Source: Candidatus Baltobacteraceae bacterium
GTDB taxonomy: Bacteria; Vulcanimicrobiota; Vulcanimicrobiia; Vulcanimicrobiales; Vulcanimicrobiaceae
NCBI GenBank assembly: GCA_035502855.1
Contig: DATJTX010000025.1
Location: 1 to 64,000, forward strand
Direction of reading: 5' to 3'
Length of the DNA stretch: 64,000 nt
In this document: positions 15,401 to 57,772 of the stretch, piece after piece
Position numbering within the stretch: the first letter of the stretch is position 1
How the letters are laid out: the number at the start of each line of letters is the position of its first letter
Translations under genes and position numbers: made by a program
The notes under the pieces: generated by a model
The model's database searches: none
What the model saw: only the letters and a program-made list of their open reading frames with translations
Told to the model about the DNA's origin: nothing

Positions 15401-16117
15401 TTACGCTGACTCCTCCTGGCGGGTCTCGTCGCCCGACAGCGCGTGGAAGAGTGCGCTGCGTTCGGCGGTGAGATTGCAGTCGCGGTTGCGGTGCTTGTGC
15501 GGCGGGACGACGATCTCGAGCGCGATCGTCGCCGGCGAACCGTGCAGGAGCACGATCCGGTCTGCGAGGTAGAGCGCTTCCTCGATATCGTGGGTGACGA
15601 GAATTGCCGTCGCACTGACGGCGGCGATGATCTCGGCGAGCGCTTCCTGCAACTGCATGCGGCGTAGCGCATCGAGCGCGGCAAGCGGCTCGTCCAACAA
15701 CAGCACCGAGGGTTTGCGCACCAGCGCGCGGGCGAGCGCGGTCCGCTGCGCCATGCCGCCGGAAAGCGCCTTGGGCAGCGTCGATCGCGCGCCGTCCAAT
15801 CCGGTGAGCTCGAGCACGTCGTCGACGCGCGCGCGCTCATCGGGCGTTCGTGCCGCAAAGCGTACGTTGCGTTCGACGGTCAGCCACGGAAAGAGCCGCG
15901 GCTCCTGAAAGACGTAGCCAACCTCGCCCTCGACCGCGATATCACCGATTGGATGCACGTCGAGCCCCGCAATCGTTCGCAGCAGCGTGCTCTTTCCACA
16001 GCCGCTCGGCCCGAGAATGGCGACGATTTCGCCGCGTTCGACCGTGAGCGAGATTCCTTCGAGCACGCGCAACGCGCCGAAGGTAACGGACAGATCGACA
16101 ATGCGGATCGCGCTCAT
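15401..16117 (-). CDS. ssuB: sulfonate-type ABC transporter ATP-binding protein
   Basis: The ATPase that powers uptake of aliphatic sulfonates or a similar oxyanion/amine. The 238-residue protein has Walker A GPSGCGKST, a Q-loop in VFQEPRLFPWLTVERNV, signature LSGGMAQR, Walker B VLLLDEPLAALD and switch VTHDIEEAL, placing it in the SsuB/TauB/NrtD group. ATG 16117 overlaps the permease stop by 4 bases. It is the last gene of the ssuA-ssuC-ssuB unit and ends 16 bases from convergent gcvPB. Taurine, sulfonate or riboflavin-precursor uptake cannot be told apart by the ATPase alone. Confidence 0.88.
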   Translation of the reverse strand: MSAIRIVDLSVTFGALRVLEGISLTVERGEIVAILGPSGCGKSTLLRTIAGLDVHPIGDIAVEGEVGYVFQEPRLFPWLTVERNVRFAARTPDERARVDDVLELTGLDGARSTLPKALSGGMAQRTALARALVRKPSVLLLDEPLAALDALRRMQLQEALAEIIAAVSATAILVTHDIEEALYLADRIVLLHGSPATIALEIVVPPHKHRNRDCNLTAERSALFHALSGDETRQEESA

Positions 16118-16869
16118 GACCGCAGGCCATCCGTCCACGCGGTGCTTCTCCGCTCGATTGTGCGCATTCCCGATTCGCAGAGTTTGCCGAGGATGGCGAG
16201 CAACAAGATCGCGACCAGGATCTCGTCGGGTCGTGAGATCTGCTGGCCCTCGGTCAGCAAGAATCCCAGGCCGCGCGTCGAGGCGAGCAATTCCGCGGCA
16301 ACGAGGAAAAGCCACGCCTGCGTGAGACCGATCCGCGCGCCGACCAGCAGCGAGGGAAGCGCCGCCGGCAGCACGACGCGAACCGCGATGCCGAACGGAT
16401 GCAGCCCGAGGATGCGCGCGACCTCGACCAACTTGCGATCGACCCCGTGAATGCCGGCGACCAGATTTACGTAGACCGGGAAGAACGCACCGATCGCGAT
16501 CAGCGTGACCTTTGCCGATTCGCCGATGCCGAGCCAAAGTAACAGCAGCGGCACCCACGCGAGCGAAGGCACCGAACGAATCGCTTGCAGCGTCGGGTCG
16601 ATCGCGCGCTCGACCGTACCGTTCAAGCCAACCAGCGTGCCGATGACGATTGCCAGCGCGAGTGCGATCGCAAAGCCGGAAAAGACACGCGCGACGCTCG
16701 CGAGGATGTCTTGCTGCAAGAGTCCACGCTGCCACAGCGAGCCGAGTTCGGCAATGACGCGTCCCGGCGGGGCGAGTTGATCGGGTGCAAACCAATGGAC
16801 GGCGCCGGCGACGATCCACAGGACGAGGATCGCCGCCGGCACAAACCATGCGAGCAGGACGTTACGCAT
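16114..16869 (-). CDS. ssuC: sulfonate-type ABC transporter permease
   Basis: A 251-residue inner-membrane permease of the BPD-transport (SsuC/TauC) type with about six membrane helices. The EAA-like loop reads VARILGLHPFGIAVRVVLPAALPSLLVGAR, with its core EVARILGLHPFGIAVRVVLP at the ATPase contact, and the channel segment SVPSLAWVPLLLLWLGIGESAK is typical. It overlaps ssuA by 8 bases and ssuB by 4, so the three genes are translated as a unit. Confidence 0.9.
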   Translation of the reverse strand: MRNVLLAWFVPAAILVLWIVAGAVHWFAPDQLAPPGRVIAELGSLWQRGLLQQDILASVARVFSGFAIALALAIVIGTLVGLNGTVERAIDPTLQAIRSVPSLAWVPLLLLWLGIGESAKVTLIAIGAFFPVYVNLVAGIHGVDRKLVEVARILGLHPFGIAVRVVLPAALPSLLVGARIGLTQAWLFLVAAELLASTRGLGFLLTEGQQISRPDEILVAILLLAILGKLCESGMRTIERRSTAWTDGLRS

Positions 16870-17851
16870 GGGCGAGGGCGACGCGCGCGGGCGCTGGATC
16901 GGCCAGCGAGCCGAGCGCGCTCTGCACCGCGCCGACGTCGGCGACGAGTTGCTCGGAGCGAATCACCGGAATCGTACCGCCGACCGAATCGAGATACGCC
17001 TTGCCCGGAACGGGATCGGTGAAGCGCGTGCGGTCGTTGATAACCAGGCTCGCGATCTTCACGTCGAGGTTCGATGCTTCGGCGAGAATCTTCGCGGTTT
17101 CGTCCGGGTGCGCTTTGGCATACGCGTGACCGAGCTCGTAGGTGCGCAGCACGGTGCGTACGACGTCGGGATACGCGGTGAGAAAATCCTCGCGCGCGTT
17201 GAGCGCGCCGTACGTGTTCCAGGCAATGTTGCGGTAGAGCAGGCGCGAGCCGGCCTCGAGTTGCGATGCCGCCATGTGCGGGTCCAGTCCGGCCCAGGCG
17301 TCGACTTGGCCGCGTTCGAGGGCGACCCGGCCGTCGGGATGCTGTAGCTCGACGATCTGGACGTCGCTCGAACTCAGGCCCACCGACGCCAGCGCGCGCA
17401 GCAGAAAGAACCACGGATCGGTTCCGCGCGTCGCCGCGATGCGCTTGTCTTTCAGCTCGCGCAGCGACCTCAGCTTGGAGTTGCGGCCGACGACGATCGC
17501 GGTCCACTCCGGCTGCGAGTAGAGAAAAACGGTGTGCAGCGGAACGCCGTTGGCTCGTGCCAGCAGCGCCGCGCTTCCGGCGGTCGAGGCGAACTGCGCC
17601 GAGCCCGAGGCGAGGAATTGATTGGCCTTGTTCGAGCCGAGCGAGAGAACCCAGGAAACGTTCGTCCCGGCCGGTGCGAGCGCGCGCTCGATCCAGCCGT
17701 TCTGCTTGAGGATCAGGCTGACGGGATTGTAGTACGCGTAGTCGAGGGTCAGCGCGTCGAGTTTGCCCGCCGCACGAGCCCGGCCGGGAAGGGCGAGGGC
17801 AGCGAGGGCGGCGCTGGCGAGGCCGATTGCCTCGCGTCGGGTCGGGTCCAT
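16862..17851 (-). CDS. ssuA: periplasmic sulfonate-binding protein (SsuA-like)
   Basis: A 329-residue substrate-binding protein. The signal region MDPTRREAIGLASAALAALAL contains a twin Arg, so export may be by Tat, with cleavage after GRARA. The mature part follows the SsuA/TauA pattern: ALTLDYAYYNPVSLILKQNG, FASTAGSAALLARANGVPLH, KDKRIAATRGTDPWFFLLRAL and LERGQVDAWAGLDPHMA. It delivers alkanesulfonates or a related ligand to SsuBC. AGGAGG (17858-17863) precedes ATG 17851. An intrinsic terminator and a Cys/Met leader peptide lie just upstream, so expression is probably controlled by attenuation. Confidence 0.88.
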   Translation of the reverse strand: MDPTRREAIGLASAALAALALPGRARAAGKLDALTLDYAYYNPVSLILKQNGWIERALAPAGTNVSWVLSLGSNKANQFLASGSAQFASTAGSAALLARANGVPLHTVFLYSQPEWTAIVVGRNSKLRSLRELKDKRIAATRGTDPWFFLLRALASVGLSSSDVQIVELQHPDGRVALERGQVDAWAGLDPHMAASQLEAGSRLLYRNIAWNTYGALNAREDFLTAYPDVVRTVLRTYELGHAYAKAHPDETAKILAEASNLDVKIASLVINDRTRFTDPVPGKAYLDSVGGTIPVIRSEQLVADVGAVQSALGSLADPAPARVALAHA

Positions 17852-17871
17852 TGGTAGCCTCCTAGGAAAGC

Positions 17872-17900
17872 AAAAAGCCCCCGCCGGATCGGCGGAGGGC
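17872..17900 (-). terminator. attenuator in the ssu leader
   Basis: On the minus strand GCCC(T)CCGCC pairs with GGCGGGGGC (17877-17900) with one bulged T, followed by TTTTT, only 10 bases before the ssuA Shine-Dalgarno. An upstream leader segment GATCGGCG (17954-17961 on the complement) is complementary to CGCCGATC in the 5' arm and loop of this hairpin (17887-17894). The two structures are therefore mutually exclusive, as in transcription attenuation. Confidence 0.75.
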
Positions 17901-17925
17901 TTCGGTCATCGAAATTCGTGTCGCG

Positions 17926-18009
17926 CTATTTCGAGATGCGAGAAGCCAACCTACGCCGATCGGGCGCCGGGACGAGGCACATGTGACACATAACGTGCAG
18001 GTTGGACAT
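17926..18009 (-). CDS. Cys/Met leader peptide of the ssu operon, 27 codons
   Basis: ATG 18009 opens MSNLHVMCHMCLVPAP..., with Met-Cys-His-Met-Cys at codons 7-11, and stops at TAG 17926-17928, 26 bases before the attenuator hairpin. Ribosome stalling at these sulfur-amino-acid codons when charged tRNA-Cys or tRNA-Met is scarce would free or mask the antiterminator strand downstream. There is no Shine-Dalgarno. A -10 box TATCGT (18017-18022) puts the transcription start one base before ATG, so it may be read as a leaderless ORF, as reported for cysteine-responsive uORFs in mycobacteria. A second frame from 18026 is also Cys-rich (CPTCTLCVTC) and cannot be excluded. Confidence 0.55.
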   Translation of the reverse strand: MSNLHVMCHMCLVPAPDRRRLASRISK

Positions 18010-18016
18010 GGACCCG

Positions 18017-18022
18017 ACGATA
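18017..18022 (-). promoter_or_regulatory. -10 box of the ssu leader
   Basis: TGC-TATCGT on the minus strand is an extended -10. The predicted start is 18010, one base upstream of the leader-peptide ATG. No good -35 is visible. Confidence 0.4.
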
Positions 18023-18079
18023 GCATGAAGGGGAGAAAGAGGGCTACCCTTCTGGCAGGCGCTTCTTGGGTCCGGACGC

Positions 18080-57601: not shown

Positions 57602-57630
57602 TTGACGCTGCCTCGGGGCGGTGCTAGACT
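57602..57630 (+). promoter_or_regulatory. promoter of rpoB
   Basis: TTGACG (57602-57607), 17 bases, TAGACT (57625-57630) with TGC before the -10. The predicted start is about 57637, giving a leader of about 136 bases. A five-codon ORF (ATG 57639, MPRGA, TAA 57654-57656) would start at +3. Further on GAGG/CCTC around GAGCTC with TTTT (57697-57720) is a weak possible attenuator. Confidence 0.75.
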
Positions 57631-57772
57631 CTTTACCTATGCCCCGGGGCGCCTAAGCCGCGATAATTAAAGAAGGACGAGTCAGCTCCTACGACGAGGG
57701 GGACGAGCTCGGCCTCTTTTGCTTGTGCAGCACAGCGTGCCCGAACCCTCAAAGGTCAGTAAGAGAGAGATA

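Follow-up and report, generated by a model that had tools for sequence, protein, structure and literature searches.

Attenuators of the enterobacterial trp, his, thr, leu and ilv operons consist of a leader open reading frame (ORF) rich in codons for the cognate amino acid and of mutually exclusive antiterminator and terminator structures, with the position of the ribosome acting as the sensor, and all of these features are shared by the locus described here. For mycobacteria, cysteine (Cys) leaders lacking terminators were predicted in 2005 (Seliverstov, PMC1262725), and polycysteine ORFs were detected there by ribosome profiling in 2015 (Shell, PMC4633059). According to Canestrari 2020, as cited in PMC13236596, the mycobacterial Cys leaders are cysteine-responsive translational attenuators. 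In the Rhodobacterales, uORFC-8-2 has been predicted as an upstream ORF with Cys codons followed by an intrinsic terminator before cysS (PMC8632094). The transcript of the trpL attenuator of Sinorhizobium meliloti starts at the ATG of the leader peptide (PMC7298713). In bacilli, an attenuator named ABC-leader has been predicted upstream of a transporter for alkanesulfonates (Naville and Gautheret 2010, PMC2965389).

The DNA analysed here, hereafter called the window, is a stretch of 64,000 nucleotides from a Candidatus Baltobacteraceae bacterium. The leader of its ssuACB operon can be regarded with high confidence as a real and conserved ribosome-mediated transcription attenuator that would respond to Cys and probably methionine (Met), with a function deduced from sequence. 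A preliminary description had proposed a Cys/Met leader peptide with an attenuator before a sulfonate transporter, and this proposal is supported by the anatomy, the conservation, the covariation and the folding response of the leader. Anatomy, conservation of codons and pairings, covariation and folding as a function of ribosome position were computed, and from these we infer the transcription start, the translation of the ORF and its response to Cys and Met. All elements of the ssuA leader lie collinearly on the minus strand of the window sequence, from 18022 to 17851, and together with the operon they are as follows.

18017..18022, minus strand: -10 box TATCGT, extended by an upstream TG-C, 7 nt 5' of the leader ATG
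17926..18009, minus strand: leader ORF MSNLHVMCHMCLVPAPDRRRLASRISK, 27 codons, predicted to be leaderless
17977..17991, minus strand: sensor codons Met-Cys-His-Met-Cys, seen in the sequence; the Cys/Met cluster stands here in 15 orthologous leaders
17954..17966, minus strand: protector hairpin of segments 1 and 2, CGCC-CGATC-GGCG, seen in the sequence, which a ribosome on the Cys codons would cover
17941..17962, minus strand: segment 2, the 5' strand of the antiterminator, containing GATCGGCG, from pairing and covariation
17886..17903, minus strand: segment 3, the 5' arm and loop of the terminator and the 3' strand of the antiterminator, from pairing and covariation
17867..17903, minus strand: intrinsic terminator, with a stem (17903-17873) of about -23 kcal/mol and a T-rich tail
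17857..17863, minus strand: Shine-Dalgarno sequence of ssuA, AGGAGGC, seen in the sequence
16862..17851, minus strand: ssuA, aliphatic sulfonate-binding protein family (TIGR01728, above cut-off)
16114..16869, minus strand: ABC permease of the SsuC type (PF00528; best NCBIfam match SsuC, below the equivalog cut-off)
15401..16120, minus strand: ABC ATPase in the SsuB position (PF00005)

The main parts of this arrangement had already been pointed out: the 27-codon ORF with Met-Cys-His-Met-Cys is present on the minus strand (18009-17926), the terminator hairpin (stem 17903-17873) lies ahead of the ssuA Shine-Dalgarno sequence (17863-17857), and the -10 box is found as TATCGT, preceded by a TG and separated from the ATG by 7 nt. 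As a correction, no -35 box is recognisable upstream of TATCGT in the window genome. The ORF contains two Cys codons (17988-17986 and 17979-17977) and two internal Met codons (17991-17989 and 17982-17980), and the Cys cluster occupies codons 8-11 of 27. The same -10 position is found in the sister genome (L003) and in 13 other ssuA leaders. The sister promoter reads TTGACC-N17-TATCGT with the -35 box at the expected place, and TTGAC is present in 14 of the 15 ssuA promoters of the family. At 18023-18060 of the window, the match to L003 ends just upstream of the -10 box; since no similarity exists between the two sequences farther upstream, the promoter seems to have been severed there by a rearrangement, and the window promoter, lacking a -35 box, may rely on its extended -10 element. 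The -10 box is separated from the start codon by 7-12 nt in the 15 ssuA leaders of the family, which leaves no space for a Shine-Dalgarno sequence and puts the predicted start of transcription at the ATG or immediately beside it. The ssuA leader ORF is predicted to be leaderless, with a transcript that would start at or beside its ATG, the promoters having been assigned purely by consensus and conservation.

The 15 ssuA leaders contain 14.6% Cys and 9.9% Met, compared with 1.1% and 1.4%, respectively, in 12 window ORFs. When ORFs are called by promoter position and composition is ignored, all of those before ssuA and before the met-type genes for homoserine dehydrogenase (hom) are Cys/Met-rich. 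A short ORF enriched in codons for the amino acids of the pathway is thus located between promoter and gene, as in ribosome-mediated attenuators. Over all leaders, Met is enriched in frame 0 only (155, against 14 and 9 in the other frames), and the high Cys content of the +1 frame (124 Cys) arises from ATG codons with a T or C after them, which read as TGT or TGC one base on. The preliminary description had left the true frame open owing to a second Cys-rich frame from 18026. This candidate is rejected, since its ATG lies inside the -10 element and upstream of the predicted transcript, its Cys residues are a by-product of ATG-Y in the +1 frame, and its C-terminal part is frameshifted by a 2-nt indel in L003. 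The choice of the main frame (18009-17926) for the putative leader peptide can be considered settled, and its sequence differs from that of L003 by only two amino acids.

A search for SsuA in 60 relatives and then in 99 genomes of the family has identified 17 family genomes with SsuA, and the order promoter, Cys/Met ORF, terminator and ssuA is found for 15 of these 17 orthologues. The leader peptides share little besides the Cys/Met cluster, which reads MCHMC in the window and MCMCC, MCICC, CMSMCC, CRMCMC or CTSPCC elsewhere, and the Cys spacing is not conserved. The promoter and terminator are kept at L004, which has no Cys ORF, and the leader element is absent from a distant SsuA homologue (L010) and from a locus of another family (L008). 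The phylum is Candidatus Eremiobacterota, in line with the earlier remark that it is apparently different from the actinobacteria. In 69 further loci (L052-L120), almost all from other phyla, promoter-based calling found only L054, which itself belongs to Eremiobacterota, and the SsuA homologues of Burkholderia, Pseudomonas, Chloroflexota and others show no conserved Cys ORF with a terminator upstream. Three Thermomicrobia loci (L052, L053 and L055) have a conserved short ORF, M[VI]GVF[AS]FWPRIC[ED]C..., about 270 nt before ssuA; the flanking DNA is conserved, a terminator was looked for there and not found, and the ORF is possibly an unrelated Cys-responsive upstream ORF. A known riboswitch (a SAM riboswitch or another Rfam family) was rejected as an explanation because there is no covariance-model match: Rfam gave no match anywhere in the window and only tRNAs in nine related loci.

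The preliminary description had noted that a segment of the ORF can pair with the terminator so that the two structures exclude each other. This is confirmed, and the helix is longer than described: GATCGGCG (17961-17954) is complementary to CGCCGATC (17894-17887), and the full antiterminator pairs 17962-17941 with 17903-17886 at -25.4 kcal/mol (z -4.1 against shuffled leaders). The antiterminator starts 7-14 nt past the last Cys codon in 14 of the 15 ssuA leaders, the exception being L005, where the predicted antiterminator pairing does not exceed chance (z +1.3). Pairing is stronger than in shuffled sequences in 14 of the 15 ssuA leaders (mean z -1.76) and in all 25 hom leaders (mean z -2.27). 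Covariation in relatives, which had been proposed as a check together with codon-level conservation of the peptide, is found as compensatory changes in both antiterminator and terminator, and the codon-level conservation is found as the Cys/Met cluster in 15 ssuA leaders. On MAFFT alignments built without structure information, the ssuA antiterminator shows 9 double-changed cells compared with 3.2 in shuffles (0/500) and the ssuA terminator, more weakly, 5 compared with 2.0 (6/500), while the hom antiterminator shows 8 compared with 3.8 (7/500) and the hom terminator 17 compared with 5.0 (0/500), counts that are inflated because the sequences are related and the changes are not independent events, so that they constitute support rather than proof. 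In the ssuA antiterminator, 86% of the cells are paired, compared with 20-50% in slid registers. Two further features of an attenuator are found in this way, namely an intrinsic terminator between ORF and gene and an antiterminator that excludes it, the latter with covariation.

Each leader was folded with a virtual ribosome in place, using the sequence that begins 13 nt past the A-site codon and ends with the terminator. Averaged over the ssuA leaders, the terminator forms with a probability of 0.64 when the ribosome sits nine codons upstream of the last Cys. This value drops to 0.21 once the A site is three codons short of that Cys, at the first Cys of an MCxCC-type cluster, and recovers to 0.91 with the ribosome at the stop codon, whereas shuffled ssuA leaders stay at 0.84-0.86. 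For the window leader, the values are 0-0.03 as long as the ribosome has not passed the last Cys codon and 0.41-0.48 thereafter. Before the 3' arm of the terminator exists, the 5' arm is paired upstream with a mean probability of 0.77 in the stall and 0.32 at the stop codon for ssuA, and of 0.84 and 0.16, respectively, for hom, the shuffled value being about 0.5. In several leaders, including that of the sister genome L003 and most hom leaders, equilibrium folding favours the terminator even in the stall, so that co-transcriptional kinetics must be invoked; the completed hom terminator is very stable and equilibrium predicts little antitermination there, and therefore the co-transcriptional order must matter. 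In the computed folds, a stalled ribosome frees the antiterminator and a ribosome at the stop codon permits the terminator, clearly so for ssuA and more weakly at equilibrium for hom.

The following mechanism is proposed. Transcription would begin at or next to the leader ATG, and the ORF would be translated without a Shine-Dalgarno sequence. When charged Cys-tRNA, and probably also charged Met-tRNA, is ample, the ribosome would reach the end of the ORF and make segment 2 unavailable, allowing the terminator to form and transcription to end before ssuA. When the charged tRNA is scarce, the ribosome would stall on Met-Cys-His-Met-Cys, leaving segment 2 free to pair with the terminator's 5' arm, and RNA polymerase could continue into ssuA. 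The Cys/Met leader very probably turns on the operon for sulfur uptake in this manner when sulfur amino acids are short.

Similar leaders are found before other sulfur genes. A DNA probe consisting of the conserved box before the ssuA start was used in the family, and in genomes without ssuA it identified hom genes and one cysH, most of which are preceded by the promoter, ORF and terminator known from ssuA; a relaxed search with 3 mismatches gave mostly noise when compared with its reversed control. Met-rich, Cys-containing leaders precede hom-metY-metX in relatives and in the window's own genome, where the leader of this operon reads MFQTSMMTCSMCIMRTHKAGTVIGSTV. The 28 distinct hom leaders contain 17.4% Met and 7.6% Cys (1.4% and 1.1% in the 12 window ORFs), and the gap between the -10 box and the ATG is 7 nt in 26 of the 27 promoter-defined cases. 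A sequence model of promoter and ORF (R1), run on 60 relatives, has added leaders before metY, cystathionine synthase, sulfite reductase and a second tRNA-Cys gene, and Cys/Met leaders also precede cysH-cysI and cysI. Weak R1 matches reading MSLTTMFRKCPMCSSPLA or similar (L265, L273 and L281) were discarded, as they look by eye like the antisense strand of a gene for an aminoacyl-tRNA synthetase. In a different family of the class, a Cys/Met ORF and a terminator are present at two of the three hom genes found (L314 and L316), and the L314 leader has a Shine-Dalgarno sequence. Eremiobacterota probably possess a group of leaderless attenuators of the leader-peptide type that serve sulfur amino acids and sense Met codons besides Cys codons, with Met-rich leaders on hom-metY-metX and Cys-rich leaders on ssu, cysH-cysI and the second tRNA-Cys. 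If this is true, methionine would be sensed here through the ribosome, a task for which most studied bacteria employ SAM riboswitches, T-boxes or repressors.

Several of these loci show peculiarities of their own. The second tRNA-Cys(GCA) lies behind a Cys-rich leader ORF and a terminator, for example MKHVGVCCCACCISPALPCRLGATSA, at L261 (G030), L310 (G020) and L312 (G115). In G020 (L310) and G093 (L311), it heads an operon resembling ssuC-ssuB, and in G093 the Cys leader before it is missing. Because the ordinary tRNA-Cys of many genomes escaped detection at E 1e-6, a tRNA-Cys search at this threshold is uninformative on how frequent tRNA-Cys genes without a leader are. The hom gene at L236 (G006) has an apparently mixed leader on the reverse strand, MTLSMSMAITMSMITTCLRDEAAFSVR, with Met, Thr, Ile and Cys as judged by eye. 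At L256 and L292 (G001, same genus), hom seems to be deleted save for its last codons, and the Met/Cys leader is now before metY. In relatives (e.g. L003, L181-L211 and L139), the conserved box, GCTTTCCCATC[TG]CANNAGGAGGC, immediately precedes the start codons of ssuA, hom and cysH, and most of its 37 distinct sequences fold over the Shine-Dalgarno sequence. It persists where leader and terminator are missing (L190, L201 and L008) and is absent from the window genome; perhaps it is a second, translational layer of control.

Leaders for other pathways are present in the same genomes and act as controls for specificity. On other contigs of the window's own genome (L286, L287 and L289), MLVTSLLLLALALVGRSASNRLGLTTA precedes leuA, MLLTALLIVVLVLISRSSPNRLGLTTA precedes ilvB and MISMFVSTTTTTTTTTTVVRCRVDVG precedes thrC; these leaders, rich in Leu, in Val/Ile/Leu and in Thr, respectively, have terminators and the same near-leaderless promoter layout. 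Paralogues of hom of the thr type have Thr leaders, e.g. MITTTTITTTLGEGRSGLTSA, and DAHP synthase has a Trp-Trp-Trp leader. Within the same genomes, leader composition thus matches the downstream pathway: Leu for leuA, Val/Leu/Ile for ilvB, Thr for thrC and thr-type hom, Trp for DAHP synthase and Met/Cys for hom-metY-metX. The ssuACB attenuator appears to belong to a wider control of amino-acid genes by attenuation in the family. The same promoter type with a five-codon near-leaderless ORF (ATGCCCCGGGGCGCCTAA) is also seen at 57602-57656 of the window, shortly before rpoB, and L293 has a similar start before rpoB.

The match between leader composition and pathway speaks against metal or redox sensing as a general principle. 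Upstream ORFs with Cys motifs that respond to copper are known in other bacteria, and Cys pairs are able to bind metals, so that a Cys-rich nascent peptide or its codons could sense metal or redox stress rather than charged Cys- and Met-tRNA. Such sensing is exceedingly unlikely here, because Met enrichment is as strong as Cys enrichment, the Cys spacing is not conserved, and the leaders of the Leu, Ile/Val, Thr and Trp operons are built alike.

Translational attenuation, in which the leader ORF would govern access to the ssuA Shine-Dalgarno sequence and the hairpin would be a weak or incidental terminator, has a precedent in the mycobacterial Cys leaders without terminators (PMC1262725) and is favoured by the hairpin that is conserved in relatives over the Shine-Dalgarno sequences of ssuA, hom and cysH. 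However, the leaders retain a stable GC-rich stem and a T-rich tail between ORF and gene, and this stem shows covariation; the antiterminator pairs with the terminator's 5' arm and not with the Shine-Dalgarno region; and the window genome is without the hairpin box. These points make the explanation very improbable for ssuACB. Decay of the leader in the window genome, with the operon being constitutive or read from elsewhere, is suggested by the lost -35 box and by the breakpoint relative to the sister genome just upstream of the -10 box. This too is unlikely, since the window genome has an intact ORF, terminator and pair of helices and still carries the extended -10 element, and the peptide differs from the sister leader by two changes only. 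Ribosome-mediated transcription attenuation in response to Cys and Met is the reading preferred for the ssuACB leader.

The proposed attenuator differs from those of enterobacteria in its predicted leaderless ORF, in the sensing of Cys together with Met and in its phylum, Eremiobacterota. With the mycobacterial polycysteine leaders it shares a leaderless Cys-rich upstream ORF before sulfur genes, predicted here from the 7-nt gap. In mycobacteria, the Cys codons are near the stop codon, no terminator was found and translational attenuation is reported (PMC1262725; PMC13236596), whereas here the cluster lies inside the ORF and is mixed with Met, and both terminator and antiterminator are present. 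A Cys-codon upstream ORF and a terminator are shared with uORFC-8-2, which differs in lying before cysS, the gene for Cys-tRNA synthetase, in its bacterial class, in having been found in a single order and in having tandem Cys usually at positions 14 and 15; the target here is ssuA and the phylum Eremiobacterota. The trpL attenuator of S. meliloti has the transcript start at the ATG that is predicted for the present leader but is Trp-specific and alphaproteobacterial. The ABC-leader has the same kind of target, a sulfonate ABC operon, but it belongs to Firmicutes, no leader peptide has been reported for it and its sensing mechanism was left open. S-box or SAM riboswitches likewise control Met and Cys genes by premature termination, through an RNA aptamer instead of a translated ORF.

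In the literature searched, no description was found of a leaderless Cys/Met leader with an intrinsic terminator, and none, within incomplete coverage, of a methionine leader peptide or a Met-codon leader on a met operon. Cys attenuators are already known or predicted elsewhere. What is new, as far as the literature was searched, is the occurrence in this phylum, the pairing of a leaderless Cys/Met ORF with both an antiterminator and a terminator, the targeting of a sulfonate operon and the presence of Met-rich leaders on a methionine operon. Methionine thereby gains a strong candidate for a leader-peptide attenuator, with Met/Cys leaders on the hom of the met operon contrasting with Thr leaders on thr-type hom in the same family. 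Compared with the known systems, the proposed attenuator would couple leaderless initiation with classical terminator control and extend leader-peptide attenuation to a phylum known almost only from metagenomes.
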